A stretch of 64,000 bases of DNA from an uncultured Poribacteria bacterium (GTDB lineage: Bacteria > Poribacteria > WGA-4E > PCPOR2b). The position numbers and the translations under genes are program-made. Below the pieces are notes generated by a model. It was not told the origin of the DNA. It made no database searches and saw only the letters and a program-made list of their open reading frames with translations. The stretch's first letter is position 1; each line of letters opens with the position of its first letter. Location of the stretch: NCBI GenBank assembly GCA_958296125.1, contig OY282444.1:992001-1056000 (forward strand). The letters are read 5' to 3'. Positions 32,088-53,076 of the stretch are shown piece by piece.

Positions 32088-35000
32088 TCAAAGATCCTCG
32101 GGCCCGTAGGATTCCGTGAAGGTTGCCCAGATTCCCGTGTGTTTATTCAGACGGCTCAAGCCACGATAGGTGCCGAACCACACGTAAGTATCTCCTATGG
32201 CTATAGAGAGGATGCCGTTATGCGCCAAGCCCTCCTTTCGGGTGTACGTTGTCCAGCTATTCGCCGACAGGTCAAACCGACTCACCCCCGCATTGTACGT
32301 CCCAATCCACACCTCTGTGCCATCAACGCCAATCGAAGTAACCTTGTTGCTAGCAAGTCCATCTTGTGTTGTATAGGAAGTCCAAGTCTCTGTTTCGTCA
32401 TCATTGTAAACGGTCACCCCGCGATCCGTTCCAAACCATACCCGCTCGCTGTCAATGGCAATACAGCTGATTTCATCGCTCGCTAAACCATCTGCTGTTG
32501 TGATAGTCTTCCACGTATCCTTACCGATGTTGTATTTGCTCACACCGCGTCGCGTACCGACCCACACATTTTTCTTGCTGCTAGCGATACACCAAATCTC
32601 ATCCGTAACCAACGACTCCGCGAACTCTTTGGAGACGGATGCGGGTTGAATCTCCGTGCCGGATGTGTAAGCGATCCAGGCGTTGAGGTCATCCGCGGTT
32701 CGCGGATACTTGCCAATCCCGGAGTTAGTGCCAACCCAAATGTTATTGCCATCGTTGCTGACAGAAGTCACATTATTGGCAGGCAACCCATGCTCGGTTT
32801 TGTATTGATCCCAGCGCAGGGCAAGCTTATCAAAGCGGTTCGCCCCATCTCGGGTGCCGACCCAGACGTACTGTTCATCAACCACAATCGAACTTACCGA
32901 ATTATCGGACAGTGTGTCTCGAGTTTTGGGGCGCCATCGGTGCCAATGGCCACCGTGGGTGGCTATTTCCTCGGAACCGCCCTCTTGCTGATACTGCCTC
33001 CAAGTTCCCGATCCCTTATCATAACGAGACAAACCGTTGTCAGTGCCAACCCAGACGAAACGCTCATCCGTATCCACCGTCCGGATGGTACGTCCAGAAA
33101 GGGTGGGCATAGCTGTGAAGGAACTCCAAGATTCTTTCTGCTTGTCGTAACGAGAAAGCCCCTGCAACGTACCCACCCATACATAGTCATCATCAACAGC
33201 AAGCCCATACTCATCTACATGGTTATGCAGCAGCCCTTTGAGATCTCTAAACACCGTCCAAGTGCCAGATGCAAAGTGAAATCGCCTAAGTCCATTGTTG
33301 GGTACGGCTAACCAGAGGTAATCGTCGTCGACAGCCAACTCAAGCGTCCCACCCCCCGATTTAATTGTCGTCCACTCTCCGGTGCGCCTATCGTATCGGG
33401 TGACCCCCGCCTTATTCCAAGGTCTGTAGAGTATCCAGACATCGTCCTTTGTGGCAATAATTCGTCTAATGGTATCTGAAGCGAGCACGTCACTCGTTGA
33501 AAATGTGTCCCACTTCTCTGTTTTTTTATCGTATCGTGACAACGGGCGGTTGCTGTCTCTGTCCCACTCCGAGCGTGCGACCCAGATGAAATCGTCATCC
33601 GCAGTAATCCACTCGGCACCCCTACCCGCCAGTCCATCCCTCGGCGTGAAATTGCGCCATTCACCGGTAAATTCATTGTAACGATGAAGCCCGCGACCCG
33701 ACCCGAACCAAACCTCCGGCCCATCAACCGCCAGTGCGTTCAACCGCTCAATCCGCATATCTCCTTTAGGGTAAATCGCATTCCATTTTCCAGTCTTTTT
33801 ACTATAATGACTCAACTCGACACCGATCATTGGAATCACCCAGACGCTGTGTTGGCTCACAGCAATCTTGTCCACATCGTTCGTAGAGAGTCCATCTTCT
33901 ATCGTAAAATGCTTCCACGTATCCGCCATTTTATCGTACCGGAGGACCCCGTAGTCCGTGGTGAACCAGACAGCATCCGTATCCACATAGCTCCAACGCA
34001 CCAAGGTCATCGATTTTTTCTGAGTAGACTGGAGAATATCTAAGCGCGTAAAACGCTGCCACGCTCCCGTAGGGCGATGAAATCGTAAAATCCCTCCGTT
34101 CGGGGAAGAAGCCCAGTTATTGAACCAGATGTAATCCCCATCAAATTTGATATTTGAGACCTTTGTTTCAAGAAACGGCTCCCGCACCGGACGCGATTGA
34201 TGTAGCACCCTCCCTCCATCCGGGATGCGATATTCAACAAGACCAACAGCTGTCGCTAACCACAGGGTTTCATCCGCATCACACAGGATGTCTCGAATAT
34301 TATACGGCACATTCGAGATAAGACTCCAAGCGTCGGAAGCAGTTGCATAGCTTCCTAAACCTTGGGTTGTGCCTATCCAGAGGACACCATCTCGGAAATC
34401 GAGTGCAGTGACGTTGGTAGCGGGCAATTGTGCGTTAAACGGCATCGGTATCCAACGTCCCTGAGCAGCGTCATATCGTGCAAGCCCTTGGTGTGTCCCT
34501 GCCCAAAGGGCCTCCCCGGTGGAAAGTAGCACATTAACGTAGGTGTCGGGGAGTCCCTCGGCAGCACGATACATCTTCTTATCCGCAACTGAATATCGCC
34601 AAACACCTTCCGCCCCACCAAACCAGACCATTCCATCGGAAGCAAGTACGGATAACACCAGCGTATTTGAGTGAGTACCCGGCGTATCAAGTTGTGTCCA
34701 CTTTTGAGCAATGGTGTCATACATGGCGGGCCCCAAACTTGTACCGAGCCAGAGCACATCAGCCGCCGCATCGAGTGCTGTCACAAAAGCCTCTCCTTGC
34801 GTCTGCACTCGGGGCGGAGAATAAAATGCCCACTCACCACCCGAACACGGTCGTGTGCCCAGCCCTCGATCAGTACCGATCCAGACCTGCGCGCCAGTCA
34901 TCTCGCCGGTCGAGATTTCGATCAGCTCGCTTTGCCCCGATTCAGGCAGTTGAGACGCAACATCTATCGTCATAACATAGGGGGTCGGAAGGCCATCTTC

Positions 35001-36239
35001 CTTGGAGATGATTTCCCAACTGTGCGTTTGGGGCTGGTAAATCGAAATTCCCGATATGGTCGCCAGCCAGAGGTTTCCATCGGCATCACGCGTTATATCC
35101 CGGACATCGTTATCCGCGAGAAAATCGGCTTGTTTGTAAAGTGTCCACTCGCCGGTTACCTTATCAAAGCGGCTCACTCCATCCTCTTTGCTTCCAAACC
35201 AGATATCATTGCCCTGTGTTGTAATCCAACTCACATGATTGCTTGACAACCCATCCGCTTTGGTGTAATGCACCCAAGTGTTAACCGGCTTGATGAAACG
35301 ATGCACGCCCGCATTAGCCGTACCAAACCAGACCTGGAACCCATCCGCGCGAATAGAAGTAATCATATTGCTTTTGAGTAGATCGGTTTTCGTAAACGTC
35401 TTGATGAAGGCTTGGTCAACCTGATTGTATTGACTCACCCCTTCGTCTTGCGTTCCAAACCAAACACTGTTCTCGTCCACCGCAATGGTAGCAATCTCAT
35501 TGTCTATCAAGCCATCGGATTTTTTATAGTTATTCCAAGAATCGGTGTCCCGATGGTATCGGCTGACTCCACCTTTGCTAAACCTGGGGTCATCCTCCCA
35601 TCCATGGGGATCCGGATTTATCTCCCTATCCGTGCCGACCCACACGTACTCGGGCTCGACTGCAATCGCTGTAATCACCTTGCTGACCAAACCATCCTTC
35701 CGAGTACGCACCGCCCAACTGTCAATAGTTTTGTCATAACGGTTTAACCCATTAGATGTTCCAAACCAAACGTAGTTCCCGTCCACTGCAATAGATGACA
35801 CCTGATCACTCGCTAACCCATCAATGGTACGGTAGGTTGAAAAGGTACTTGTCTGCGTGTCGTAGCGGCTTACTCCCTCCTCCGTGGCGAACCACACCCA
35901 CTGCCCATCAATTGCAAGGGCGTTTATCGCATCGTTCGACAACCCGTCTTCCGTCGTGTAGTGGAACCATTTGTCTCGGTCGCGATCCCAGCGCGAAACA
36001 CCGGCTTGCGTTGCAAACCATACATTGTCCGAGTCAGCAGCAATACAGTTGACTTCGTTACTGACAAGTTTTCGTTCTATCCGCCACATCTTTTCGGAAC
36101 GCGAGTCTGAATGGAAATCCTCCAACGGCACATTGGGTCCATCGGGTACTAATGTTGTACAACCCACCATCATAAAGAGCGGTAGCAACAACAGGTTACA
36201 TACAACAGTTTGCGCTCTGCGTAGACCGGCTCGCTTCAT
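32088..36239 (-). CDS. Giant beta-propeller lipoprotein with about 29 Reg_prop-like blades
   Basis: This 1,383-residue protein begins MKRAGLRRAQTVVCNL and has a signal peptide ending in a lipobox (FMMVGC), so it is an anchored lipoprotein. From residue about 45 to the end it is built of a repeating 40-50 residue unit with a V-W-F/V-G-T-x-x-G-V-S-R-Y-D core, for example YVWFGTSNGLNRYD and YVWVGTLQGLSRYD. By my count there are 29 such motifs, about four seven-bladed propellers. Reg_prop repeats usually form the sensor half of hybrid two-component proteins, but no kinase, membrane helix or output domain follows. A longer in-frame start at 36386 lacks support; AAGGAAGG lies about 13 bases before this ATG. 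It lies divergent from the TonB receptor at 36558. Confidence 0.85.
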   Translation of the reverse strand: MKRAGLRRAQTVVCNLLLLPLFMMVGCTTLVPDGPNVPLEDFHSDSRSEKMWRIERKLVSNEVNCIAADSDNVWFATQAGVSRWDRDRDKWFHYTTEDGLSNDAINALAIDGQWVWFATEEGVSRYDTQTSTFSTYRTIDGLASDQVSSIAVDGNYVWFGTSNGLNRYDKTIDSWAVRTRKDGLVSKVITAIAVEPEYVWVGTDREINPDPHGWEDDPRFSKGGVSRYHRDTDSWNNYKKSDGLIDNEIATIAVDENSVWFGTQDEGVSQYNQVDQAFIKTFTKTDLLKSNMITSIRADGFQVWFGTANAGVHRFIKPVNTWVHYTKADGLSSNHVSWITTQGNDIWFGSKEDGVSRFDKVTGEWTLYKQADFLADNDVRDITRDADGNLWLATISGISIYQPQTHSWEIISKEDGLPTPYVMTIDVASQLPESGQSELIEISTGEMTGAQVWIGTDRGLGTRPCSGGEWAFYSPPRVQTQGEAFVTALDAAADVLWLGTSLGPAMYDTIAQKWTQLDTPGTHSNTLVLSVLASDGMVWFGGAEGVWRYSVADKKMYRAAEGLPDTYVNVLLSTGEALWAGTHQGLARYDAAQGRWIPMPFNAQLPATNVTALDFRDGVLWIGTTQGLGSYATASDAWSLISNVPYNIRDILCDADETLWLATAVGLVEYRIPDGGRVLHQSRPVREPFLETKVSNIKFDGDYIWFNNWASSPNGGILRFHRPTGAWQRFTRLDILQSTQKKSMTLVRWSYVDTDAVWFTTDYGVLRYDKMADTWKHFTIEDGLSTNDVDKIAVSQHSVWVIPMIGVELSHYSKKTGKWNAIYPKGDMRIERLNALAVDGPEVWFGSGRGLHRYNEFTGEWRNFTPRDGLAGRGAEWITADDDFIWVARSEWDRDSNRPLSRYDKKTEKWDTFSTSDVLASDTIRRIIATKDDVWILYRPWNKAGVTRYDRRTGEWTTIKSGGGTLELAVDDDYLWLAVPNNGLRRFHFASGTWTVFRDLKGLLHNHVDEYGLAVDDDYVWVGTLQGLSRYDKQKESWSSFTAMPTLSGRTIRTVDTDERFVWVGTDNGLSRYDKGSGTWRQYQQEGGSEEIATHGGHWHRWRPKTRDTLSDNSVSSIVVDEQYVWVGTRDGANRFDKLALRWDQYKTEHGLPANNVTSVSNDGNNIWVGTNSGIGKYPRTADDLNAWIAYTSGTEIQPASVSKEFAESLVTDEIWCIASSKKNVWVGTRRGVSKYNIGKDTWKTITTADGLASDEISCIAIDSERVWFGTDRGVTVYNDDETETWTSYTTQDGLASNKVTSIGVDGTEVWIGTYNAGVSRFDLSANSWTTYTRKEGLAHNGILSIAIGDTYVWFGTYRGLSRLNKHTGIWATFTESYGPEDL

Positions 36240-36557
36240 TATTTCTATAGCCTTCCTTTCACCCAAAATGGTTTTATAGTTATTGTGCCACCAAGTTAGG
36301 GAGTATGTCAACTTAATTTGGTTATCATAACCCAAATCGACTTGTGCTTCTATACGAACAAAAGCGACTGTCCAAAACGCAAACACGACTGTTCAAAAGT
36401 TGAACAAAGGAAACCGCCTCGTCGAACAAAATCGGTCGGGAATCCGTGTATAGACGCAAACTCTCGCTTAAATCCCTTTGGCACAAAAATTGCTGTCTTT
36501 GGAATCAATTTCAAACATTCAATGATCTAAAAACCATCTTGAAAAAGGATCTATTGT
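36240..36557. other. Divergent intergenic region between propeller lipoprotein and TonB receptor
   Basis: About 318 bases without a convincing gene. It contains a near-palindrome TTGGTTATCATAACCCAA at 36313-36330, several AACAAA-type A-rich runs and the sigma-54 promoter described separately. A plus-strand open frame at 36318-36530 has no protein-like features. Confidence 0.7.
36479..36494 (+). promoter_or_regulatory. Consensus sigma-54 (-24/-12) promoter
   Basis: TGGCAC at 36479-36484, a spacer of five A, then TTGCT at 36490-36494 give the full -24/-12 consensus. The GG and GC doublets are 12 bases apart, as required. Transcription should start near 36505, about 53 bases before the TonB-dependent receptor ATG at 36558. 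It needs an AAA+ activator such as the NtrC-family protein encoded at 45337-46791. I saw no other full match in the window. Confidence 0.75.
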
Positions 36558-38888
36558 ATGATAGTTCGACCGAAACAACTATGGATATGTTTGAGCCTCT
36601 TTCTCATCAGTATTAACACCGTTTATTCCCAAGGAGACGAGGCAGAATCTCCCCCTATTGAACTCGAGGAGGTCACTGTCATAACCCGCGTCGCGAAAGA
36701 CACCTTCCGAACGCCGAACGCGGTCTCGGTCATTGACCGAGCGCAAATCGAGCGCACCAATGCCCCAACGACACCCCGAATCCTGCGCGAAACAGTGGGA
36801 GTCTGGGCACAGCAAACGACGGTTGGTCAAGGTTCACCGCTGCTGCGTGGACTTACCGGCTATCAAGCCTTTCTCACGATTGATGGTGTTCGACTCAACA
36901 ACTCTACCTTCCGCTCCGGGCCCAATCAGTATTTGATAACAATCAGTCCAGACAACCTTGACCGGATTGAAGTGCTGCGCGGTGCCGGTTCAATGCTATA
37001 CGGCAGCGGCGCAATGGGAGGTGTCATCAGCATGTTCACCAAAGACACCATTCTCGACAGCGCGACAGAAGACTGGAACATCCAGTCCCGCGCCTTCACT
37101 CGATTCGCTTCGGGCAGTTCAGAGCGGCTTGGACGGCTTGAAGTAGTCGGAAGTCAAAAGCAACTCGGATTTTCGGTCGGTGCATCCGCACGATGGTTTG
37201 GTAATATCAATCCGGGCAACGGCTACGACCTGCACTACAAGAACCGTAAATTTGAAATCGTTACTGACAAACCAAAGGGCGTACTAGTCTCGGATGGTCC
37301 CCCCAAAGATGTCCCCGAAAAATGGCTAATTGATTCCGAAGGGCCACTCGGTTGGAACGCCTACGATGGCGATGCCAAACTCTCTTACAAACTCACTGAC
37401 ACCAGCACAGTCAACCTCGCCTACCAACTCTGGCGGCAACCTCAAACCCCACGCTACGACAAAATTGCATCGCGTGAGTATGATGAGTTTTTCTTTCAAC
37501 CGCAAGACCGAGACCTACTCTACGCCACCTACCTTTTCAAACCGGAAAATTTCGCGATCGACCGACTCCAATTCACCACCTCATTCCACCGTCAAAAAGA
37601 AGGGCGCAATGAACTCAAAAGGCCCACAGAACCCAAACCTGATGTCATAGAACGTCGCGAACGGTTCGATACCGTCAACACATTGGGGATTAGCACACAG
37701 GCGGTCAATTCATCTCTGCCGAAGCAGCGTGTCGTCGCAGGGGGTGAATTCTACTTCGATACCCTTTCGAGCCAAACGATCAAAACTGACATCAAGACCG
37801 GGGCTGAAAAGGTAGACGACACAAAAGGCAGGTTTATCGACGGTTCACAATTCTGGGATGCAAACCTCTACGTTCAGGATGAAATCGAACTACACGAACG
37901 CCTCGAACTGACGCTCGGTGGACGATTTACGTTTTATCACACGAACGCAGATCTCTCGGTGCGTTCTGATCAGTTTGATGATCTTAACCAATCCGGAAAC
38001 ACATTGACCTACAGCGCAGGTCTAGTCGCAAGTGTCACCAGCGGGTTGAACGTCGTCGGGAATTTTGCCACATCGTTCCGCGCCCCTTCCTTGAATGATA
38101 CAACCGCTGTTGAGGTCACCAATGAAGGGATCGATTCCCCCTCACCTGACCTCAAATCGGAGAGAGGGTGGACAGCAGAGGGCGGGTTCAAGGCGCGTTA
38201 CCCCTGGTTTATCGGTTCACTTACCCTTTTTCATGGTCGCGTCAGCGATCTGGTCACCCGTGTTCCGGTCGAAGATGCCTACGCTGGAAAATCGCTTCCA
38301 AACTTGATTAAGGAAATCCAGCAGAACAATCCGGGCGTTGATGTCTATGTATTCGACAATGTGGATGAAGTGCAAATCCAAGGCGTTGAGTTTGCTGGGA
38401 TGGTCCCGATTCAAAGTGGTTTGTCGCTCTACGGTAATGCCATGTTCACGCGTGGAAAGGTACTGGTCATCAACGGTGCAGCCCCTGATCCCGACAAGCC
38501 GTGGGAAGAACGGATTCGTCGTGAACCACCCCTCAACGGCATGGTCGGTATCCGTTGGGAACCACCTGTTGAGCGATTTTGGGCGGAATTCTTCGTCCGT
38601 GGCGCAACCGAGCAGAGACGGTTAAATCGGAGCGATATTCGAGACCCACGGATTCCGGGAACCAGCCGCGACACAGGTGAAGTTAAGTTTGATGCCAACG
38701 GTGCAGCGATTGGGCAAGGTTCACCGGGGTGGATGACGCTGAATCTGCGCGGCGGTTTTCAGGTGACCGAATATAATCAACTCACCCTTGCACTTGAGAA
38801 CCTGCTCGATAAGCGGTATCGCGAGCATGGCTCTGGCATCAACGCACCGGGATTCAATCTGATTGTCAGTCTTGATAACCGATTTTAA
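36558..38888 (+). CDS. TonB-dependent outer-membrane receptor
   Basis: A 776-residue porin-like receptor that takes up a chelate or other ligand using TonB energy. The signal peptide is ISLSLFLISINTVYS-like at the N-terminus, then a TonB-box-like LEEVTVITR. The plug domain carries PLLRGLTGYQAFLTIDGVRL and IEVLRGAGSMLYGSGAMGGV. A 22-strand barrel follows and the protein ends in Phe (VSLDNRF), the outer-membrane insertion signal. AAAAGGA precedes the ATG at 36558. It is placed under a sigma-54 promoter and followed by two Asp/His-rich haem-type proteins. Substrate unknown; iron, haem or another metal complex is the usual guess. Confidence 0.9.
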   Translation: MIVRPKQLWICLSLFLISINTVYSQGDEAESPPIELEEVTVITRVAKDTFRTPNAVSVIDRAQIERTNAPTTPRILRETVGVWAQQTTVGQGSPLLRGLTGYQAFLTIDGVRLNNSTFRSGPNQYLITISPDNLDRIEVLRGAGSMLYGSGAMGGVISMFTKDTILDSATEDWNIQSRAFTRFASGSSERLGRLEVVGSQKQLGFSVGASARWFGNINPGNGYDLHYKNRKFEIVTDKPKGVLVSDGPPKDVPEKWLIDSEGPLGWNAYDGDAKLSYKLTDTSTVNLAYQLWRQPQTPRYDKIASREYDEFFFQPQDRDLLYATYLFKPENFAIDRLQFTTSFHRQKEGRNELKRPTEPKPDVIERRERFDTVNTLGISTQAVNSSLPKQRVVAGGEFYFDTLSSQTIKTDIKTGAEKVDDTKGRFIDGSQFWDANLYVQDEIELHERLELTLGGRFTFYHTNADLSVRSDQFDDLNQSGNTLTYSAGLVASVTSGLNVVGNFATSFRAPSLNDTTAVEVTNEGIDSPSPDLKSERGWTAEGGFKARYPWFIGSLTLFHGRVSDLVTRVPVEDAYAGKSLPNLIKEIQQNNPGVDVYVFDNVDEVQIQGVEFAGMVPIQSGLSLYGNAMFTRGKVLVINGAAPDPDKPWEERIRREPPLNGMVGIRWEPPVERFWAEFFVRGATEQRRLNRSDIRDPRIPGTSRDTGEVKFDANGAAIGQGSPGWMTLNLRGGFQVTEYNQLTLALENLLDKRYREHGSGINAPGFNLIVSLDNRF

Positions 38889-38961: not shown

Positions 38962-39474
38962 GTGAAACTATTGCATATTGCTAAAATTTTATTTTTGATT
39001 ACATTACTGATTTCGGTTGGGCTGATTGGTTGTGGTGATGTCAATGACGACGATGATGATGATGATGATGACGACGATAATGATGATGACGACGACCATG
39101 ACGACCATGACCATGATGATGACGATGATGACAAATTTGAGGAGGGCGCCGATGGTCTTGGTATTGCATTTGACAACCCCGCAGATGTTGGTAGACCGAG
39201 CCCCTCTTTCAACGCAGATATTTTGCCTATCCTTACAAGCCGATGTGCCTTTGCAGGGTGCCATGTCGCTGGAGGCCCGGACGGTATAGACCTCCGCACA
39301 TATAACACCCTGAATGTAGGAGGGGAAGATGATGTTATTATTGTGGGGAATGCGAGAGAGAGCGAATTGGTAGAACAAATTGTTGAAGGCAAGATGCCTC
39401 CTAACGACCCCCTGGAGGCAGCCCAGATCCAACTTATCATCGATTGGATCAATGAGGGTGCTAAGAACAACTGA
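38962..39474 (+). CDS. Asp-rich lipoprotein with CX4CH haem-type domain
   Basis: This 170-residue protein starts at GTG 38962 with GAAAGG upstream. The signal peptide ends in a lipobox (GLIGC), so it is an anchored lipoprotein. A low-complexity segment of more than 25 Asp with a few His and Asn follows, then a domain that begins DGLGIAFDNPADVGRPSPSF. That domain has LTSRCAFAGCHVAGG, a CX4CH pattern, then KMPPNDPLEAAQIQLIIDWI. The domain resembles the planctomycete-type cytochrome c module; four residues between the cysteines are unusual for covalent haem but are known. It is downstream of the TonB receptor. The domain is duplicated in the next gene. Confidence 0.8.
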   Translation: MKLLHIAKILFLITLLISVGLIGCGDVNDDDDDDDDDDDNDDDDDHDDHDHDDDDDDKFEEGADGLGIAFDNPADVGRPSPSFNADILPILTSRCAFAGCHVAGGPDGIDLRTYNTLNVGGEDDVIIVGNARESELVEQIVEGKMPPNDPLEAAQIQLIIDWINEGAKNN

Positions 39475-39530: not shown

Positions 39531-40871
39531 ATGTATACGAGATTCAGAAAACATATTAGCATTGCAAAGTGTCTGTTTTTTATAGTGATCACTTGTGCAA
39601 TCACATACCATGGATCTAATTCTTTGGGTACAAATGAGGAGGGAGGGCACCATAACTCCTCGGCTTACGATGTTGGGTTGAATACCATCGACGATGAAAA
39701 TCTAAAGTACCTGGAAATTGGTAACGCAAACAATTTTGAGCAAAATGAGTTGTGGCAATATAACTTCGGTGAAAACGGAGCGATAGCCTCTAGTCTCAGC
39801 CATGACGACGACGACCATGATGACGACGACCATGATGACGACGACCATGATGACGACGATGACCATGACGACGATGACCATGACGACGATGACCATGACG
39901 ACGATGACCATGATGACGACGACCATGATGACGACGACCACGATGATAACCATCACCATCACGACGACCATGACGACAATAGAGAATCCCAGTCTTTTTC
40001 CTCGTCATTATATCAGTTCGATCTGACTGTCCATAGAGGCATGAATTTCATTTATATCCCGTTAAAAGTCAAATCTGTTGACGGGAGAGCAGTCACCATT
40101 GAGACTCTGAGGGACCTGTACGAAGTGCTGACAGAGGTGAACTATCTTATGGTCTTCGATCCCGATACTCAAAGCTGGGTGAACTATTTCGGGGATAGGG
40201 TTGTAGACCGGGTGTTGCGAAGTGATGAGGGGGTTGTTGCCTTTATGAATAATGCGATGACCTTACAGCTGACGGGAGAAACACTTGACCCCTTCGTCCA
40301 TATACATAACGGCACAAATTTCATAGGGATCCCCCGAAGACCTTCTCCTTCGTATTCGGTAAGCAATTTATTGCTCTCCATACCTACAGTTTTTGCCATT
40401 ATCGTTGAAAATAATGGTCAGTTGAAAATGGTCTCTAGAGCAGGTGATGATGCTGACAACCCAATTACTGGCGGTCAATCGTTTATGCTAATTTCCACAG
40501 AGGCTGCAGATGTAACGTTCTCTGGGGAAGTGTGGGGAGTACCTCAAGATGGTCTTGGTATTGCATTTGACAACCCCGCAGATGTTGGTAGACCGAGCCC
40601 CTCTTTCAACGCAGATATTTTGCCTATCCTTACGAGCCGATGTGCCTTTGCAGGGTGCCATGTCGCTGGAGGCCCGGAAGGTATAGACCTCCGCACATAT
40701 AACACCCTGAATGTAGGAGGAGAAGATGATGTTATTATTGTAGGGAATGCGAGAGAGAGCGAATTGGTAGAACAAATTGTTGAAGGCAAGATGCCTCCTG
40801 ACGACCCCCTGGAGGCAGCCCAGATCCAACTTATCATCGATTGGATCAATGAGGGTGCTAAGAACAACTGA
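39531..40871 (+). CDS. Exported Asp/His-repeat protein with CX4CH haem-type domain
   Basis: A 446-residue protein starting at the ATG at 39531 (GAAGGAG upstream). It has a hydrophobic N-terminal signal (CLFFIVITCAITYHG). Residues about 90-150 are a striking His-Asp tract of repeated HDDDD units ending in HHHHDDHDDN. Next comes a beta-rich domain (LTVHRGMNFIYIPLK, LMVFDPDTQSWVNYF, TNFIGIP) like those in surface proteins of this kind of bacterium. The C-terminal domain is almost identical to the previous protein's haem-type domain, with CX4CH. The His-Asp tract could chelate metal. It sits between two TonB receptors. Confidence 0.8.
   Translation: MYTRFRKHISIAKCLFFIVITCAITYHGSNSLGTNEEGGHHNSSAYDVGLNTIDDENLKYLEIGNANNFEQNELWQYNFGENGAIASSLSHDDDDHDDDDHDDDDHDDDDDHDDDDHDDDDHDDDDHDDDDHDDDDHDDNHHHHDDHDDNRESQSFSSSLYQFDLTVHRGMNFIYIPLKVKSVDGRAVTIETLRDLYEVLTEVNYLMVFDPDTQSWVNYFGDRVVDRVLRSDEGVVAFMNNAMTLQLTGETLDPFVHIHNGTNFIGIPRRPSPSYSVSNLLLSIPTVFAIIVENNGQLKMVSRAGDDADNPITGGQSFMLISTEAADVTFSGEVWGVPQDGLGIAFDNPADVGRPSPSFNADILPILTSRCAFAGCHVAGGPEGIDLRTYNTLNVGGEDDVIIVGNARESELVEQIVEGKMPPDDPLEAAQIQLIIDWINEGAKNN
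39801..39980 (+). repeat. Tandem 15-bp repeats encoding HDDDD
   Basis: About 180 bases of CATGACGACGATGAC-type units (CAT plus four GAY codons) code for 11 or so HDDDD units, then a His run. A related but shorter Asp tract is at about 39045-39133 in the gene upstream. Such arrays can expand or shrink by slippage. Confidence 0.9.
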
Positions 40872-40911: not shown

Positions 40912-40940
40912 TTGGCTGTTTGCCTACAATGTGCTATAAT
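40912..40940 (+). promoter_or_regulatory. Extended -10 sigma-70 promoter
   Basis: TTGGCT at 40912-40917, a 17-base spacer and a perfect TATAAT at 40935-40940 with TG two bases before it. It lies about 35 bases before the start of the second TonB receptor. Confidence 0.65.
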
Positions 40941-40974
40941 TGAAGAAGCATTTACACATTGTGAGGACCAATTC

Positions 40975-42993
40975 ATGATTAAATCCACCTACGCAATCTG
41001 TCTACATCTTCTACTTTTTGGGCTCGTGAGTTGCCTTAGCGTTTCAGCAGAAGAGGACACAAAACCCGTTCAACTCGACGAAATTGTGGTGACACCCGGC
41101 CGGTTCGCGATTGATGATGGGACCCCTTCAAAGTTATCACTCTCAAAGCAACGAATTGAGCAGTTTCCGTTGGTTGGTAACGATGTGATGCGGGCTGCAC
41201 ATATTTTTCCGGGGGTCGTTGCAAGCGATTACAGCGCACGATTCAGTGTGCGCGGCGGCGAAAAGGACGACATTTTGGTGAGATTAGACGGGATGGAACT
41301 CTTCAATCCTTACCACCTACAAGACTTTGGCGGTGCTGTTTCACTGGTTGGACTCGATTTAATCCAGCGCGTCGAATTGTTGATGGGTGGCTTCCCGGCG
41401 GAGTACGGGGATAAAATGTCCGGTGTGTTTGACATCACAACAAAAGAGGGGAACGCTGAGAAAGTTTCTGCCAATTTCGGGCTTGACCTTATCAATACAA
41501 CCGCAATGGTGGAGGGACCCTTATCAGAAAAAGGGTCATGGCGACTGTCAGCACGCCGGGGTTACGTTGACCTAATCCTTGCCCTGATTGATTTCGATGA
41601 GGACTACAAGCCACAATACGCGGATGTCTATGGTAAACTGACTTATGCGCCGACACAGACGGATACGCTCACGCTTAATGGGCTTTATGGATGGGATAAG
41701 AATCGGATTCGGCAAGGGGATCCCGACAATAATTTAGATTCGCGCTATGATAATTTAACCGTTTGGACGCGGTGGCGGCATCGCTTGGGCACGGCGAATT
41801 GGTCTGATGTGTTCGTTTTTGGGGGGACCGCAGCTCATGATCGGCGGACCGGAACGACGAATTTTGATGCCCGTTCGTTCCGTTTCTTCGGCACCAAAAC
41901 GGAATTCACAGCCGGTTTTTTGGATAAACATCTGTTTCGCAGCGGCATAGAATGGCGTTGGACGGAAGCGCAATATGATTACAATGTTCAAGAGCGGCAG
42001 CCCGGAATAGACCGGTACACACGCGTCCTTGCAGACTTTGAAGGCAGCGGCAGCGAAATCAAGGCGTTTCTTCAAGACGAGTGGCAGCTACATCCGAAAC
42101 TCGCGATCAATATGGGAGGGCGATATGTATTTCAGGACTATCGCGCCGCCGGTATCCAAAGCTATGAAATTGGACCTCGGGTTGCACTTGCGGTGCGCCC
42201 AACAGAGAAACTAGTGTTACGTGGGGCGTGGGGAATCTATCATCAACCTGTCCTTATGATGAATATTCCCGTGGAGGATAACGTTCAGACCGTCGGGCGT
42301 GCTGAACAGGCGGTTCATTACATTCTCGGCGGTGAATACCATCCAAACGCTAATTTCTTGTTCCGTTTGGAGGCGTATTACAAAACATTGGACAATCTTT
42401 CAGGGCGGCTCAGGGAGTTCGGACGACAGGCCCAGATTTTCACACCCCCGGAATCCGGGGGGGCAAAAGGGGTGGATGTTTTCGTGACGCATGCAGTTTC
42501 AAATCGGTTAACATGGGGAGTCGGCTATGCGTACACCATCGCGAAAGAAAGTGCAGGCGGTGAGACATTTTTTCGGCAGTCCGACCGACGGCATGCTGTC
42601 GCGCTCAGTAGCAGCCATCAACTTTCACGGGGGTGGCATCTCTACCTTACTTGGCGTTTCCATACTGGCGAACCGAAAACGCCGTTGACGCATACGCTGG
42701 TTCCGCAGCCGGGGGGTGGCATCGCGTGTGACCGACAGTTTGGAGCGACGCACTCAGAGCGGTTACCACCTTATCACAGTCTCGATTTTCGGTTTACGAA
42801 ACGGAATCCATACAGCCGATGGGAGCTCACATGGTATTTCCAAATCTTAAATCTCTACAATCGTTCTAACATTGACCAATATGCGTTCAGTGAGAAGCGA
42901 GACGAGGAAACGGGTGCCCTGATCGGGTGTGAGATTGATGAAGAGCCGCTGCTGCCGATTCTGCCGACATTGGGTATTTCGGTCGCGTTTTAA
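40975..42993 (+). CDS. TonB-dependent outer-membrane receptor (second)
   Basis: A 672-residue receptor distinct from the one at 36558. It has a signal peptide, the TonB-box-like LDEIVVTPGRFAI, a plug with ARFSVRGGEKDDILVRLDGM, and VELLMGGFPAEYGDKMSGVFDI. The barrel ends VSVAF-like (TLGISVAF) with a terminal Phe. It starts at the ATG at 40975 with TGAGGACC upstream. An in-frame start at 40912 is inside the promoter. It follows the Asp/His haem-type protein by about 100 bases but has its own promoter. Substrate unknown. Confidence 0.88.
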   Translation: MIKSTYAICLHLLLFGLVSCLSVSAEEDTKPVQLDEIVVTPGRFAIDDGTPSKLSLSKQRIEQFPLVGNDVMRAAHIFPGVVASDYSARFSVRGGEKDDILVRLDGMELFNPYHLQDFGGAVSLVGLDLIQRVELLMGGFPAEYGDKMSGVFDITTKEGNAEKVSANFGLDLINTTAMVEGPLSEKGSWRLSARRGYVDLILALIDFDEDYKPQYADVYGKLTYAPTQTDTLTLNGLYGWDKNRIRQGDPDNNLDSRYDNLTVWTRWRHRLGTANWSDVFVFGGTAAHDRRTGTTNFDARSFRFFGTKTEFTAGFLDKHLFRSGIEWRWTEAQYDYNVQERQPGIDRYTRVLADFEGSGSEIKAFLQDEWQLHPKLAINMGGRYVFQDYRAAGIQSYEIGPRVALAVRPTEKLVLRGAWGIYHQPVLMMNIPVEDNVQTVGRAEQAVHYILGGEYHPNANFLFRLEAYYKTLDNLSGRLREFGRQAQIFTPPESGGAKGVDVFVTHAVSNRLTWGVGYAYTIAKESAGGETFFRQSDRRHAVALSSSHQLSRGWHLYLTWRFHTGEPKTPLTHTLVPQPGGGIACDRQFGATHSERLPPYHSLDFRFTKRNPYSRWELTWYFQILNLYNRSNIDQYAFSEKRDEETGALIGCEIDEEPLLPILPTLGISVAF

Positions 42994-45336: not shown

Positions 45337-46791
45337 CTAACGCCTTTGAATCCCATACTCCTCCATCTTAGAATGGAGCGTATTCCGATTGATTCCGAGG
45401 ATTTCAGCGGCTTTCCTGCGATTCCAGCCGGTGCGCTGGAGAATAAACTCAAAGAGCGGTTTTTCAACGGCGATGCGAATCTCTGCGTGAAGCGATCCGG
45501 AGGCTGCTCCCGATTCGATAAATTCAGCCACGCGCTCCGACATCAGGGCGGCAAGGCGACTCTCGAAACTTGTCGCTGCCCTTGTCACAGAGGGGGTTGA
45601 GCTTCCAGAAAGTTCCGGGAAGTGTTCTGGAAGCAGTACCTGACCGGCACACATTACGAGTGCTCGCTTCAGGGCGTTTTCAAGTTCGCGGACGTTTCCG
45701 GGCCAATCATAAACCATTAGCAGCTTGAACGCTTCGGGTGAAATTGTCCCTTTAGGCTGATCGTAATCTTGAGCAAAACGGGACATAAAAAAATCTACCA
45801 GATCGGGTATATCCTCTTTCCGTTCACGCAATGGAGGTAAAAAAATTGGCACCACATTGAGCCGATAGAACAAGTCCTCCCGAAAGGCACCCTCTTGGAT
45901 TGCCAAATCAAGACATCGATTGGTAGCAGCAACTACCCGCACATTGACCTTGCGAATCTCGTTGGATCCGATTGGTTCGACCTCCCGTTCTTGGAGGACC
46001 CGCAATAACTTCATCTGAACCTCAATCGGTAATTCACCCACCTCGTCCAGAAAAATCGTTCCCTGGTCCGCCTGCTCAAATTTCCCTTGGCGCGCCGTGT
46101 CAGCACCTGTATACGCCCCTTTAACGTGTCCAAAGAGTGCACTTTCGATTAAGTCTGAGGGAATCGCACTACAATCCACCACCACAAATGCCTCATCCGC
46201 TCTCCTACTATTTTGGTGAATTGCTTTGGCTATTGACTCCTTACCAGTGCCACTCTCCCCCATAATCAGCACCGTTTCCTCGCTGATTGCCGCCCGTCCG
46301 ATAGTCAGGTAGACCACGTGCATCGCATCGCTCTCCCCAACAATCTGAGTTCCAACATCATCCCCGTTTTGTGGCGTGACAGTATCTTCCGATAACGAAT
46401 CTTCTGCCATCGCCGCTTTCGCCTGGTCAGCAGCATACACCGAGCGAGATACCAGAGATATGACCTCTTTGAGATCAAAAGGCTTGGTCACATAATCATA
46501 AGCGTGACGTTTTGCCGCTTCAATGGCGGTTTGTGTTGTGCCGTGAGCGGTGATAATAATAATCAATGCGGTTTTATTAATCTCCTGAAGTTCTTCAATC
46601 AGATCTAACCCATTGACATCGGGCATAAAGATATCGAGAAAAATCGTGTCAATCGCTTCTGAGCGGAGGAGATCGACCGTTTCTTTCCCGTTGCGCGCGG
46701 AGAATGTGCGATACCCTTCCTTCTGAAGAGCTTTCTCCAACACAAAGCGGATGCTATCATCGTCGTCAGCGATAAGAATTGCGTGTGTCAT
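45337..46791 (-). CDS. NtrC-family sigma-54-dependent response regulator
   Basis: A 484-residue activator with three parts. A receiver domain (about 1-120) has the acidic pocket IADDDDS and phospho-Asp in [10 protein letters not shown] sigma-54-binding AAA+ domain (about 150-390) has Walker [13 protein letters not shown], the sigma-54 contact loop GAYTGA (a variant of GAFTGA), Walker [13 protein letters not shown] and [12 protein letters not shown] Fis-type DNA-binding helix-turn-helix ([19 protein letters not shown]) ends it. It should use ATP to open promoters such as that at 36479. It is the first gene of a run with the vertex proteins. A matching kinase is not adjacent; the NtrB-like kinase at 51478-53004 is 4.7 kb away. 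Confidence 0.94.
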
Positions 46792-46947: not shown

Positions 46948-49900
46948 TTATTTCAGAATCAACATCCGCCGTGTCGCTGTGAATTCATCCGCTGTCAGTG
47001 TGTAAAAATAGAGACCACTAGCGACAGATTCACCCAACTGATTCCGTCCGTCCCAATAGGCTGCACGGCTGCGACTCTGATACATGCCCGCTGCTTGATG
47101 CCCCACGGCTAAATGCCGAACTACTCCCCCATTCATATCATAAATCGTCAGCGTTACCTCTGCCGACTCTGCCAACTGATACGGTATCCACGTCTCCGGG
47201 TTAAACGGATTCGGATAGTTTGCCAACAACGCAGTCTCTTCAGGAATCAACGAGGCTAACAGGTTCTGAAGGTTTTCAATACCCTGTTTGAAGGCAAGCG
47301 AACCGTCATCTTCCAACCGCGCCTGTGCTATCCACGCCTCTATCGTCGCAGCATCTACGCTTTCTGCTCCAACCGCGGGCGCAGCGGGTGATTCGGCAAT
47401 CCCTTGTGACACAAGAATAAGGTCAAGGATGCTGACCACACCATCGCCGTTGGCATCCACTGGTGAGTTAGCAGGCACCCTTTTCCCCAACTGCTGAGCG
47501 ACAAGAATCAGATCCAAGATACTGACAATCCCATCTCGATTCACGTCCCCGGTCGCTAGTTGTCCCTCTACAGCGATGCGGATTTGATGCGGTCCGGCGG
47601 GGATACTATCGCCGGTAACGGAGCCGAACTGGAACTTCTGTAATGCCAACTCTGTTTCGCCACCCGATTTCGCCTTGAACCTCACCTGAAGCAGGGAGCC
47701 GGTGCCGTTTACACCTTGAGAGGACAGTCGTGCCGCGCTGAGTCCTGCGATTTTACCCGCTGCGTTATCAATGCTGCCACCCTGAAAGAAGGTCGTGCCG
47801 CCGTTCGTCTTCAGGAAACCGCCTTCGGTCACGTTGATAGCTTCGAGGGCGGCGGGGTCAAAGGCAATATCAAACTGCCAGCCTGCCAAGTCGGTGACAG
47901 TTTCTGCGCGGATGTCGAGGGTAAAGGTATCGTCACGGTGAATTGGGGTTTGGGAAAAAGCGTAGCCGACACCGGGGGTTGCCACTGTATATTCAGTGCC
48001 GGGTTCAAACCCAAAAAAGGCGTTATAGTTTGCCCTAACCGCTACTAACAAGACATTTCTCCCCTCCTGAAGTGTGACCGGGAGAAAATCTGTGTAATCA
48101 TCCGACGCATGGTTATGGAGGGACTGGTAAATCAAAGTCCCGTTGAGCCAAACCTGAAGATCGTGAAGGCTGCCAACATACATCGTTGTGTCTTGTTGCC
48201 GCGGTGAATAGAGGGATACAGTGCCGTAGAGAGTGTTATCGAGGCTGCCTCCAAGCATATCCTCAATGTTTTTACGCCCCGTAGCCGGAAGTCTGCGGGA
48301 GGTCCACACGTCATCGCCGACGGACTGTCCCTCTACTGCCCCGTGGGTAGCAATCGCCACCTCTGTCACCGCACCCCCACTCGCTTCTGCCAATAAATCC
48401 CTACTACCACTCGGTTCTTCGTACGGTAATACGACCCATAGCCATGGTCCCTCTATTTTGGGCCCTCCCTTTGGGAACGCCGGATTTCCGTGCCAAAGAA
48501 CCGTTATATTTTTGCGTAACCCATCCAAAGGTGAAATGTCAGAGATCTCATTTTTATGGATTCCCAGCCATGTCAAGTTGGTCAAACTCGCCAAGGGGGA
48601 TACATTCACAATGTTATTTTCTGCAACCTCTAGCCATGTCAAGTTGGTTAATCCTGCAAGCGGAGATATATCCGATATATTGTTATGTGAAAGATTCATA
48701 CGGGTTAACCCGGTTAATCCCGTAAGGGGGGATATATCCGATATTTCGTTGTCCCGAAGATACAGTTCTTTCAAACCTGTTAATCCCGCCAAAGGCGTAA
48801 GGTCTGATATATTACCGTCGCAAAAATCTATCGTCTCCAGTTTTGTTAAACCCGCAAGGGGCGATAAATCGGATATAGGATTGCTCCACTGGAACACTGC
48901 TTCCAGGTTGATTAACCCTGCCAAAGGCGAGAGGTCGGATACGCCGCGACCGCTAACGCGACGGCTAAAACGGAACCACTCTAGATTAATCAGTCCTGCA
49001 AGCGGCGACAGGTCGGATATGTTGAGGTCGGAAATACCTAACCCCCTCAGATTGATTAATCCTGCAAGCGGCGACAGGTCGGATACCACAGTGTCGTCCA
49101 ACTCTAGGCGAGTGAGATTTGTTAAACCCCTTACGGGTGATAAATCGGACACCAAAGTGTGATCAAACTCAAGGTGGATGAGATTTGTTAAGTTCCTCAC
49201 AGGCGATATATCAGATACGTTACTGTGATCAAACTCTATGTGAGTGAGATTTGTTAAGCCTCTCACAGGCGATATATCGGATAAGAGGTTGTCATGAACC
49301 CAGAGCTCACGCAGGTTGATTAAGCCTGCTAGCGGTGAAAGGTCGGAAACCTCATTATCGGCAAGTTGTAAAATTCTCAGATTGGTCGCAACCTGAAGTC
49401 CTGTCAAATCACGGATGCCCCTGTTCGGCACATGGAGTCTTTCCAACCTTGCCATCTCCTCCACAGTAATCGGGGCATTCGGGCTTTTGCCGAGCTCCTC
49501 CGCAATCGCAGCGCGCAGGTTCGGGTCAGGGATATGAACAACCGTACCCGGTAGACGCTCCGGCTGCGATGGGCTATCAACCTCCGCCTCCGGGAAGTCC
49601 AATGCGTAAATCATTGCATTGAAATTAGAGGTCCATGCGTCCCGTTTCATACTCCCATTCTCACCCTCTAACACCAGCAAGCCGATGTTCTGTAGCCCTA
49701 TATTCTCACGTATTTTTTTAAGGAATACTTCCGTCTCTAACCCAACCGCAGCTGCGGCATAAGCCACGTCCACCGGCCCCTGAAACACCTCATGAAATCG
49801 TGAAATCGGCTCAATATCACCAAACGCCCCTCCCGTCGCTGCCAGTGCCGCCTTGTATCTATCCGTGTCTTCTTGAACAAGCGCGTCCAGCGTTGATTGT

Positions 49901-51258
49901 TCGGCATACAAGCGTAACGCCTGCGCTTTGTCATACGCTGGCGTGGCATTGCTCTCTATCACGGAACGGACCTGATCCTCAAAGGTTTTCATCCCTTCCG
50001 TGTGGCACCCCAAACAGGATAACCCATTCCGCACCGTCGGATCACTCGCCGCGGGGTTGGAGACGATGTTTATCGGTGCGTCATCTAAACGAAAACCGGA
50101 CGCGTTGGCAAGGTAATATCCCTGTAACCCATTGGGTAGGTTGAAGATAACCTCTCCACCATCATGCGTGAAATTGAGGGGATGGGTGAAGATGTTCTGT
50201 GTGCCAACACTCCCCGCAAAATCGTAACTTTTCCAATACGCGCCATATCGGGAGGTGTGTCGTTCTATCACCCTATTGTGATTGGAGACACCGGAATCGT
50301 TGGTGCCTGCCCGCCAGACACGCACCCCCGGCGCATTGAGTAGGTTACGGACCACATCCACCTCCAATCGGGTCTCTAGCTCCCTATCCGTTAATGGCAG
50401 GGATAGCAAATCGTGGTATAGCGGTGGTAAAGATGCCGTTGCCACGAACCAATCGACATGAACCGATGGTATATCACTCTTCATCTCCGTCTGTAATCGC
50501 CCGAGTTGGTCACGCAGCGCGGTCTGTGTTGGCGCATTAAACGCGATGTGATAGGGATACGCCGCTTCTATCTGCGTCCACGCGTCATTGACATCCCATT
50601 CATAGTGTCTCAGGTCGATGTAGAGGATTGTTCCCTGTGGGTCAATGGGGTGTGGGTTGGTAACTGTCACCCCCCATGAGAGACTGTTGACCAGTTTGGA
50701 GAGTCCGCTGCGGTATTCTTGGAGTCTCCTCGGTGTCTCACCTGCGTTGTAGAGGTGTGTCATTGTGAAGTAACGGGCAAACGCACGGTCAAACGGTGTG
50801 AGGGACATGACGTGATTCTCAATGGTATTGAGAATTTCACCGGGAGAGATGAACTGACTATCGGAGACGGAGGTTGCCGCCCAATCGGGTGCATCGGCTA
50901 AAATCCAGTTTCGGATGGTGTCAATCGCTTGGGTGGATAGTTGGGGTTGTGCGAGCGGCATCCGTTTGGCTAGGTCAGTGGTCAGGAGTCGTTTATACAG
51001 TTCGGAGGCATCGGGATTTCCCGGGACAACGGTTCCCTCTTCGATGAGTGCGTTGTGTTCGATTAAGAGTGTCTCCCGATAGGCACCATCAGGTCCATGG
51101 CAGATGAGACAACTCCGTTCAAAGATAGCGTAGGCATCTTGCGCTATCGGTTGTTGGGCGGATATGTTTTGAGAACCGACGATGAATATCAATAGGCCAA
51201 TGAGTGCGATGCGACATTGAGCCCTAATCAAATAGGGTATGATATGACAGTTAAACAC
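46948..51258 (-). CDS. Chimeric exported protein: two haem sites, leucine-rich repeats, cohesin, dockerin, sorting tail
   Basis: This 1,436-residue protein starts at GTG 51258 with AAGGAGA upstream. A signal peptide is followed by CLICHG at residues 50-54 and a second CLGCHTEGM near 415, both haem c-attachment motifs. Residues about 605-920 hold 13 leucine-rich repeats of 22 residues (core SDLSPLAGLINL). Near 1105-1228 is a cohesin-like beta domain (FTLDIRAETVTDLAGWQFDIAF). Near 1233-1290 are two dockerin calcium loops (DVNRDGIVSILDLILV and DANGDGVVSILDLILV). The last 90 residues (NYPNPFNPETWIPYQ, then LTIYDMNG, ASGLYFYTLTA) look like a FlgD/Por-type C-terminal sorting domain. Cohesin and dockerin in one chain are unusual. 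Confidence 0.88.
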   Translation of the reverse strand: MFNCHIIPYLIRAQCRIALIGLLIFIVGSQNISAQQPIAQDAYAIFERSCLICHGPDGAYRETLLIEHNALIEEGTVVPGNPDASELYKRLLTTDLAKRMPLAQPQLSTQAIDTIRNWILADAPDWAATSVSDSQFISPGEILNTIENHVMSLTPFDRAFARYFTMTHLYNAGETPRRLQEYRSGLSKLVNSLSWGVTVTNPHPIDPQGTILYIDLRHYEWDVNDAWTQIEAAYPYHIAFNAPTQTALRDQLGRLQTEMKSDIPSVHVDWFVATASLPPLYHDLLSLPLTDRELETRLEVDVVRNLLNAPGVRVWRAGTNDSGVSNHNRVIERHTSRYGAYWKSYDFAGSVGTQNIFTHPLNFTHDGGEVIFNLPNGLQGYYLANASGFRLDDAPINIVSNPAASDPTVRNGLSCLGCHTEGMKTFEDQVRSVIESNATPAYDKAQALRLYAEQSTLDALVQEDTDRYKAALAATGGAFGDIEPISRFHEVFQGPVDVAYAAAAVGLETEVFLKKIRENIGLQNIGLLVLEGENGSMKRDAWTSNFNAMIYALDFPEAEVDSPSQPERLPGTVVHIPDPNLRAAIAEELGKSPNAPITVEEMARLERLHVPNRGIRDLTGLQVATNLRILQLADNEVSDLSPLAGLINLRELWVHDNLLSDISPVRGLTNLTHIEFDHSNVSDISPVRNLTNLIHLEFDHTLVSDLSPVRGLTNLTRLELDDTVVSDLSPLAGLINLRGLGISDLNISDLSPLAGLINLEWFRFSRRVSGRGVSDLSPLAGLINLEAVFQWSNPISDLSPLAGLTKLETIDFCDGNISDLTPLAGLTGLKELYLRDNEISDISPLTGLTGLTRMNLSHNNISDISPLAGLTNLTWLEVAENNIVNVSPLASLTNLTWLGIHKNEISDISPLDGLRKNITVLWHGNPAFPKGGPKIEGPWLWVVLPYEEPSGSRDLLAEASGGAVTEVAIATHGAVEGQSVGDDVWTSRRLPATGRKNIEDMLGGSLDNTLYGTVSLYSPRQQDTTMYVGSLHDLQVWLNGTLIYQSLHNHASDDYTDFLPVTLQEGRNVLLVAVRANYNAFFGFEPGTEYTVATPGVGYAFSQTPIHRDDTFTLDIRAETVTDLAGWQFDIAFDPAALEAINVTEGGFLKTNGGTTFFQGGSIDNAAGKIAGLSAARLSSQGVNGTGSLLQVRFKAKSGGETELALQKFQFGSVTGDSIPAGPHQIRIAVEGQLATGDVNRDGIVSILDLILVAQQLGKRVPANSPVDANGDGVVSILDLILVSQGIAESPAAPAVGAESVDAATIEAWIAQARLEDDGSLAFKQGIENLQNLLASLIPEETALLANYPNPFNPETWIPYQLAESAEVTLTIYDMNGGVVRHLAVGHQAAGMYQSRSRAAYWDGRNQLGESVASGLYFYTLTADEFTATRRMLILK

Positions 51259-51477: not shown

Positions 51478-53004
51478 TCAAACCGGCAACGTAACAATAA
51501 ACGTTGCCCCCTGAGGCTCTGTTACATCAACCTCAATGGTGCCGCCGTGCTCCTCAACGATTTGCTGGCTAATCGCCAGCCCAAGCCCTGTCCCTTTCTG
51601 CTTCGTTGTGTAGAACGGATCAAACAGACGGGAAGCAACATCCGGCGGTATACCCCGTCCAGTATCCTTGATATAAATTTGCACTGCCCGGGTCACGGAA
51701 TTATACACGGTTTGAATCATCAAGTTCCCCCCGGCATCCATTGATTCAAGTGCGTTACGAAATAGGTTCAGCAACACCTGCGTCATTCCGTCATCGTTCA
51801 CGGCAACCGACGGACAATCGTCAGCGAAACGCTTCTCAACACCGATATTGTCCCGATCTAACTCTGGCTGACAGATCGAGAGGCTATTGTCGATCAAATC
51901 GCTAATGTTGCTCGGCTTGACCCCGGCGGTGCGTGGGTTGCCGGATACAAGTAGCTGCTCAACCACACGATTCAGTCGATCCACCTCTTTGATAATGACT
52001 TGAATGTACTCTTGAATCTCTGAATTCGATTCGCCCTCAAATTGGAGCAACTGCGCTGCACCACGGATCCCGCCAAGTGGATTTCTCACCTCGTGAGCGA
52101 CAGTTGTCGCAAGCTTTCCGAGAGTTGCCAGGCGTTCGGATTGCACAAGCGAATCAATCATCTGCTGAATCTTAACGCGCTGTGCCACAATCGCAGCGAT
52201 AATCGTCAAGATACGAATATCGTCATCAATCGAAAACTCGTCCGATGCCTTATCTATCGTCAACGTGCCGATTACTTGTTCATCAACTATCACCGGAACA
52301 CACCAGAAAGCTATCGGATCTTTAGACTGCACCGATTTTGCATCTGGAAACTCGATCTGCTGGAGGGGGGTGCGACTGTGTGGCACACCAATCGGGTGCC
52401 CAGATTGGAGCACCTGTTGTTGGATGAGGTCAATTTGATTGTCTGTTCCACGCCGGAGCTCCGCCTCCGTCAATCCAAAAACCGCCTCAACCTCTTTGAC
52501 TGGTTCACCATCTTCCCAAATTCTCAGCGCGCCGCGGTACACCCCCATCCGGTTAGCAAGGATTTTGATAATCTTTTGGAACAGTTCATCTAATTCTAGA
52601 GCGGTGTTTGCTGTATCACCTATTTCAACAAGTGTAGACAGATCGCGCACCCGTTTTTCAAGGTCTGTGTTGGCTTGATCTATCTGTTCAAGCTGGGTCT
52701 CAGTGGTGGAGCGTTGTGCCTTGAAAAGCTGGATGGTGCGGACAATGAAATACGCGATGACAGGATATAAAATTGCAACCACACCCAAATGGATTTGCTC
52801 ATAGTACAGCCCGGCGTGTATCCAATTGGCTAGCGTCGTGCACGCAAGCAACAGATACTGGCCGCGACGGTTGTCGTATATTCCGCCGAGGATTATGATC
52901 CCATAGTATAGATGCGAGACAACACCGTAGTTCTGCGGACTATCCAAGCCGTAAACAAACAGATTAATCAGTAAGACGACAAATATCAGGAAGAAAGTTA
53001 GCAT
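51478..53004 (-). CDS. NtrB-like sensor histidine kinase with GAF domain
   Basis: A 508-residue membrane-bound kinase. The N-terminal 100 residues are hydrophobic with several membrane segments. Then a coiled coil leads to a GAF-type sensor (about 130-275). The HisKA box is VAHEVRNPLGGIRGAAQ with the phospho-His. The ATPase domain has LLNLFRNALESMD (N box), DTGRGIPPDV (G1), FDPFYTTKQKGTGLGLAI (F and G2). It is of the type that partners NtrC regulators. The ATG at 53004 is the first in frame; a TTG lies two codons earlier. Confidence 0.9.
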   Translation of the reverse strand: MLTFFLIFVVLLINLFVYGLDSPQNYGVVSHLYYGIIILGGIYDNRRGQYLLLACTTLANWIHAGLYYEQIHLGVVAILYPVIAYFIVRTIQLFKAQRSTTETQLEQIDQANTDLEKRVRDLSTLVEIGDTANTALELDELFQKIIKILANRMGVYRGALRIWEDGEPVKEVEAVFGLTEAELRRGTDNQIDLIQQQVLQSGHPIGVPHSRTPLQQIEFPDAKSVQSKDPIAFWCVPVIVDEQVIGTLTIDKASDEFSIDDDIRILTIIAAIVAQRVKIQQMIDSLVQSERLATLGKLATTVAHEVRNPLGGIRGAAQLLQFEGESNSEIQEYIQVIIKEVDRLNRVVEQLLVSGNPRTAGVKPSNISDLIDNSLSICQPELDRDNIGVEKRFADDCPSVAVNDDGMTQVLLNLFRNALESMDAGGNLMIQTVYNSVTRAVQIYIKDTGRGIPPDVASRLFDPFYTTKQKGTGLGLAISQQIVEEHGGTIEVDVTEPQGATFIVTLPV

Positions 53005-53076
53005 GAGCAATGCACAGCTTCAAAAGTTACTCCCGATGACGCATCGAAGCCTCAAAAGCTTAGATAGCAAAGACTC

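Follow-up and report, generated by a model that had tools for sequence, protein, structure and literature searches.

What controls the expression of a TonB-dependent outer-membrane receptor in an uncultured Poribacteria bacterium, and which protein would throw the switch? Poribacteria are an uncultured phylum, sponge-associated for the most part. The window analyzed here, a stretch of 64,000 nucleotides, is positions 992001 to 1056000 of the host genome, a single contig of 5,156,246 bases. A sequence-only reading of the window had noted a full-consensus sigma-54 site at 36479-36494, attributed it to the receptor gene that follows, and implied a link to an NtrC-type regulator and an NtrB-like kinase in the same window. 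The site and its surroundings were compared with the rest of the host genome (G000), for which genome-wide statistics were obtained by pattern searching and from retrieved segments of sequence, and with a comparison set of 59 related genomes in families f1 to f4.

The gene downstream of the site (36558-38888, plus strand) encodes a TonB-dependent outer-membrane receptor of 776 amino acids (PF00593, E=3e-38; PF07715, E=2e-22), with plug and TonB-dependent barrel both above Pfam cutoffs. Orthologs are present in 56 of the 59 relatives at 51-91% identity, where the low end reflects a gene split at contig ends. The best curated families, TIGR01785 and TIGR01786, are of the heme/transferrin type, and the receptor scores below cutoff for both (175.4 vs. 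316.85 and 204.9 vs. 323.75, respectively). It resembles heme and siderophore receptors such as PhuR, ShuA and Cir in its plug, its TonB-type barrel and its FRAP box, at about residue 507; a heme receptor would be expected to reach those family cutoffs and to carry ligand histidines. No histidine occurs in the plug or between the FRAP and SPDL segments, leaving no recognizable heme ligands there, and the heme receptor assignment was dropped on these two grounds. A structure model of low confidence (pLDDT 59) has PhuR as its best fold match; as such matches are generic to TonB receptors, no substrate was inferred from it.

Several features flank the receptor gene. Divergent from it lies a minus-strand gene (32088-36239) for a lipoprotein of 1383 amino acids with Reg_prop/PorZ-like propeller repeats, which has its own sigma-70-like promoter at 36311-36282 (minus strand) and is divergent from the receptor gene in G005 (L247) also. 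A second, weaker TonB-dependent receptor (40912-42993, plus strand) is encoded 2 kb downstream of the first. The 16-mer TAGCACCCTCATTGAT occurs twice, at 39448-39463 and 40845-40860 (minus strand), 1.4 kb apart around a family-less 447-residue open reading frame, which suggests a repeat. An Rfam search matched tRNA only.

The proposed site, TGGCACAAAAATTGCT (36479-36494, plus strand), is indeed a full-consensus -24/-12 element: its GG and GC doublets are 10 bp apart, as sigma-54 requires, and the transcript start predicted earlier, at about 36505, is the value we also obtain from sequence. It is intergenic, located in the 318 bp between the divergent lipoprotein gene (start 36239) and the receptor gene, and the receptor ATG at 36558 follows 63 bp further on. 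A Shine-Dalgarno-like sequence, AAAAAGGA (36542-36549, plus strand), ends 8 nt before the ATG and is the probable ribosome-binding site. The pattern TGGCAC-N5-TTGCT has this single perfect match in the window, vs. 0.02 expected from dinucleotide shuffles; genome-wide, TGGCAC-N5-TTGCW is found 17 times, vs. 4 for a reversed-pattern control, and the exact 16-mer is present in three copies. Taken alone, the match is suggestive and no proof of a promoter. It could be a chance occurrence, with the receptor gene under a sigma-70 or Fur-type promoter, a reading that draws some support from sites with up to two mismatches, which are no more common in the window than in shuffles (16 found, 16 expected). 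Because these looser sites occur at chance level, the argument for a promoter depends on the perfect match, its position and its conservation. Against the chance reading, no sigma-70-like promoter facing the receptor was found on the plus strand from 36200 to the receptor start.

Upstream DNA was read for 50 receptor orthologs, and the conservation that the sequence-only reading had proposed to check was found throughout. In 46 of the 50, TGGCAY-N5-TTGC occurs within 450 bp directly upstream of the receptor gene; in the other four, a -24/-12 element, once with a mismatch, stands before the preceding co-directional gene. In G015, G031 and G038, promoter and an upstream palindrome precede a gene for an acidic CxxxCH lipoprotein, with the receptor gene next. 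The element with one mismatch, TGGTACAATACTTGCT, precedes the leading gene in G014, a member of family f4. There (L057, reverse strand 38-143), the palindrome upstream of this site is a doubled variant, TGTCAAGTTTCTGAACA-GCAC-TGTTCAGAAACTTGACA, and the order is doubled palindrome, one-mismatch -24/-12 element, cyclase-like gene and receptor, in a family without the co-distributed activator described below. The CxxxCH lipoproteins encoded directly upstream of the receptor at L067, L073 and L074, all from f3, have very long C-terminal tails rich in Asp, Glu and His, and are possibly metal- or cation-binding partners.

An inverted-repeat enhancer, suggested as something to look for 80-200 bases upstream, emerged from the aligned upstream regions. 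The palindrome TGTTCA-AAAGT-TGAACA (36390-36406; 17 bp, unstranded), a predicted NtrC-family dimer site, is centered at about -107, 72 bp upstream of the promoter element. A possible second half-site, TGTCCA (36369-36374, plus strand), precedes the palindrome by 21 bp, or two helical turns, and recurs in the aligned upstream DNA of five congeneric genomes. Where the promoter directly precedes the receptor gene (46 orthologs), TGTYCA-N5-TGRACA is exact in 29 and has one mismatch in another 14 (43 of 46), while in control stretches of equal width, intragenic or further upstream, the best palindrome match has three to five mismatches. The exact YR-consensus palindrome occurs in only three copies in the 5.16 Mb of the host genome. 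G030 and G046 keep the promoter and have no palindrome at the receptor.

Palindrome, a gap of 60-90 bp and -24/-12 promoter were then searched for as one pattern, a composite module. It has 144 matches in 53 of the 59 genomes, and the reversed-pattern control has zero in all of them. Across the wider phylum the module is found in 68 of 85 genomes, all but one of which belong to the order of the window, in families f1 to f3; the match in G067, outside that order, may be due to chance. The three f4 genomes are without the module. The 144 gaps fall into bands at 60-62, 68-75 and 80-85 bp, with none at 63-67 or 76-79 and a single gap of 90, and the bands persist after removal of redundancy (39 modules) at 58-62, 69-75 and 80-84. 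Among receptor orthologs, the gap is 71-73 bp in most of f1 and in f2, and 58-62 bp in almost all of f3, a difference of one helical turn. Three bands about 11 bp apart are what a protein-bridged DNA loop on a fixed helix face predicts, and they point to probable looping of that kind; the sequence of the site and its spacing place the upstream activator site at looping distance and on a constant face of the helix. This helical spacing, the empty reversed control, and the conservation of both elements across orthologs of 58-91% protein identity all count against a chance -24/-12 match, which we reject on conservation and controls and regard as extremely improbable.

The host genome contains 15 palindromes with no more than one mismatch, and six of these are followed, 51-83 bp further on, by a -24/-12 site, whereas the background frequency of -24/-12 sites in the window predicts about 0.1 such pairs. 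All six units precede genes for membrane or exported proteins, with export read off N-terminal sequences. By this motif-based assignment, the regulon members are the TonB-dependent receptor (36558-38888, plus strand), a 317-residue membrane protein with CxxCH motifs, a thioredoxin-fold AhpC/TSA protein (with a degenerate -12 element in its module) and three exported proteins, of the TIG/BNR, PD40 propeller and squalene-hopene-cyclase-C-like types. In the relatives, the module also stands before other exported families, among them WD40 and FG-GAP proteins that end in FlgD/Por-type domains, proteins resembling laminin G, and small lipoproteins, as well as before the squalene-hopene-cyclase-C-like family. 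No target scanned matched the PEP-CTERM Pfam model. Perfect -24/-12 sites also occur at G000:C1:431899, 2353373 and 2959844, in each case just 3' of a sigma-54 activator gene and without TGTTCA-N5-TGAACA, which suggests additional local regulons.

The sigma factor itself, the gene for which had been named as a check, is encoded at two loci in the host genome (PF04552 at 4528513, 194.7 bits, and at 518910, 85.7 bits), and 57 of the 59 relatives have at least one rpoN. The second, divergent sigma-54 gene (G000:C1:518910-519308, about 457 residues) is found in nearly all f1 and f2 genomes and is absent from f4 and, one broken fragment excepted, from f3.

Which activator would work the module is a separate matter. 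The two window proteins are where the sequence-only reading put them, and the regulator (45337-46791) is an NtrC-family response regulator with REC-AAA-HTH_8 architecture; the kinase (51478-53010), labeled NtrB-like, is a GAF-HisKA-HATPase protein that scores 134.5, below the NtrB cutoff of 240. Between them, and on the same strand as both, lies a minus-strand gene (46948-51258) for a 1436-residue protein with planctomycete-cytochrome, leucine-rich-repeat, cohesin, dockerin and FlgD/Por-type C-terminal domains. A real promoter and enhancer could be worked by this regulator with the GAF kinase: its gene is less than 10 kb from the receptor promoter and its domain architecture is correct. Its distribution argues otherwise, as it is conserved in 58 of the 59 genomes, including all three module-less f4 genomes, and in the draft assemblies G005, G001 and G003 its ortholog and the receptor are on separate contigs.

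A different protein tracks the module. The host genome has 20 full sigma-54 activator genes, which were compared with the sets of six relatives from three other families (the f2 set being incomplete). Only the activator at G000:C1:2409923-2411311, 1.38 Mb from the receptor promoter, is clearly present in f2 and f3 yet missing in f4. Like the window regulator, it has REC, Sigma54_activat and a Fis-type HTH, and the HTH regions of the two are only 30% identical. Its orthologs (64-91% identity) occur in 51 of 53 module-positive genomes and are missing from four of six module-negative genomes (Fisher p=5e-4, uncorrected for descent), a value that overstates independence because a single family, f4, supplies three of the four genomes in which module and ortholog are both missing. 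G013 and G032 are module-positive with no ortholog detected, and G044 has an ortholog and lacks an exact module. The recognition helix, [IV]ERSN[FL]YKK[LM], is invariant in all orthologs with a readable C-terminus, as would be expected if the palindrome site is constant. In f3 genomes, genes for a HAMP-HisKA kinase, the activator, a GspG-like pseudopilin and a prepilin peptidase follow one another in that order; in the host genome only the prepilin peptidase gene adjoins the activator gene, and no kinase gene is adjacent. Because of the co-distribution and the invariant helix, set against a window regulator that is ubiquitous, f4 included, and divergent in its HTH, the protein encoded at 2409923-2411311 is probably the activator of the receptor module. 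The implied link of the window's own pair to the switch is not borne out, and we consider it improbable either that the window regulator is the activator of the receptor module or that it and the GAF kinase together work this promoter.

With 20 full activators in the genome, alternatives do exist, and the module might be worked by one of the other 18, or by several related ones. The paralog at 2794666 (47% identity) has a recognition helix, ERTNLHRK, that resembles the one in the main activator, and it is present in G006, a genome that lacks the main activator and retains the promoter and a one-mismatch palindrome; the paralog may serve in that genome. In the seven genomes compared, some with incompletely sampled sets (G012), no other activator follows the main activator's pattern of presence and absence, and we judge this explanation unlikely.

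Drawing on promoter, enhancer, conservation, spacing periodicity, motif-based membership, rpoN and activator co-distribution, each read from sequence, we consider it highly likely that 36390-36494 is a complete enhancer-dependent promoter, served by a distant activator and belonging to an order-wide regulon. The sequence-only reading is supported as far as an enhancer-driven receptor gene is concerned. RNA polymerase with sigma-54 (RpoN) would occupy the -24/-12 element (36479-36494) in a closed complex. An NtrC-family response regulator in its phosphorylated form, most likely the distant 2409923-2411311 protein rather than the window's own regulator, would bind the palindrome at 36390-36406, about -107, loop the DNA, and spend ATP to open the promoter, allowing transcription of the receptor gene at 36558. 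Here we infer activator binding, looping, phosphorylation and the direction of regulation. The receptor would be one unit of a small order-wide regulon, together with other exported or surface proteins.

Among known systems, NtrC/NtrB shares the common REC-AAA-Fis HTH architecture. NtrC enhancers have the geometry of a 6-5-6 palindrome, to which the poribacterial palindrome may be likened. Both the window regulator (481.1 bits) and the 2409923 activator (449.7) fall below the cutoff of the NtrC equivalog model TIGR01818 (558.6), and, unlike in the classical nitrogen sigma-54 regulon, no nitrogen genes were among the poribacterial targets found. Of the systems already described, the one closest in architecture is the PEP-CTERM box regulon in Proteobacteria (Haft et al. 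2006, PMC1569441), in which a 17-nt motif is followed by a spacer of about 63 nt (32-92) and a sigma-54 -24/-12 motif, the NtrC-family regulator of the PrsR/PrsK pair was found by co-distribution, and most targets are single-gene units that encode exported proteins and have long upstream regions. The motif-spacer-sigma-54 layout, the co-distributed regulator and the export of targets are alike. The motifs differ, TGTTCA-N5-TGAACA as opposed to a box ending in TTTACA, as do the targets, which here include a TonB receptor, propellers and lipoproteins. The 2409923 activator (378 bits) and window regulator (346.4) both score below the PrsR cutoff (TIGR02915, 502.6); for PrsK, the f3 kinase falls far short of the cutoff.

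It has been proposed that sigma-54 controls the exterior of bacterial cells (Francke et al. 2011, PMC3162934), a proposal that the poribacterial regulon fits, and a 2025 multi-phylum survey of sigma-54 (PMC12316311) reported an enrichment, unconfirmed, of the TonB family (COG0810) in Flavobacteriia. Poribacteria are absent from the texts of both papers, in which we found no description of the poribacterial enhancer, activator or receptor. In the open-access literature, we found no paper tying Poribacteria to a sigma-54 regulon and no TonB receptor with a defined sigma-54 promoter. The best reading is of an order-specific, apparently unreported sigma-54 regulon that probably governs surface proteins; the mechanism would be classical, while the motif, the activator pairing and the targets are apparently new.

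More tentatively, and with considerable doubt, the regulon might switch the outer surface as a unit, comprising TonB receptor, propeller, cyclase-like repeat, lipoprotein and cytochrome-like proteins, and run by a membrane-kinase/NtrC-family pair. Since that pair in one family has genes for a GspG-like pseudopilin and a prepilin peptidase as neighbors, the surface may be tied to secretion or pilus state, and possibly to contact with a host or particles. To our knowledge, gene regulation in Poribacteria is essentially unknown, and the motif pair, probable activator and target list together offer a testable regulon from genome data. With their spacing bands, the 144 modules also form a natural data set for asking how strictly evolution preserves enhancer-promoter phasing. 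In this regulon a TonB-dependent receptor would be subject to all-or-none control by an enhancer, in contrast to the iron-type repression usually assumed, and the view of sigma-54 as manager of the cell exterior would extend to one more phylum.
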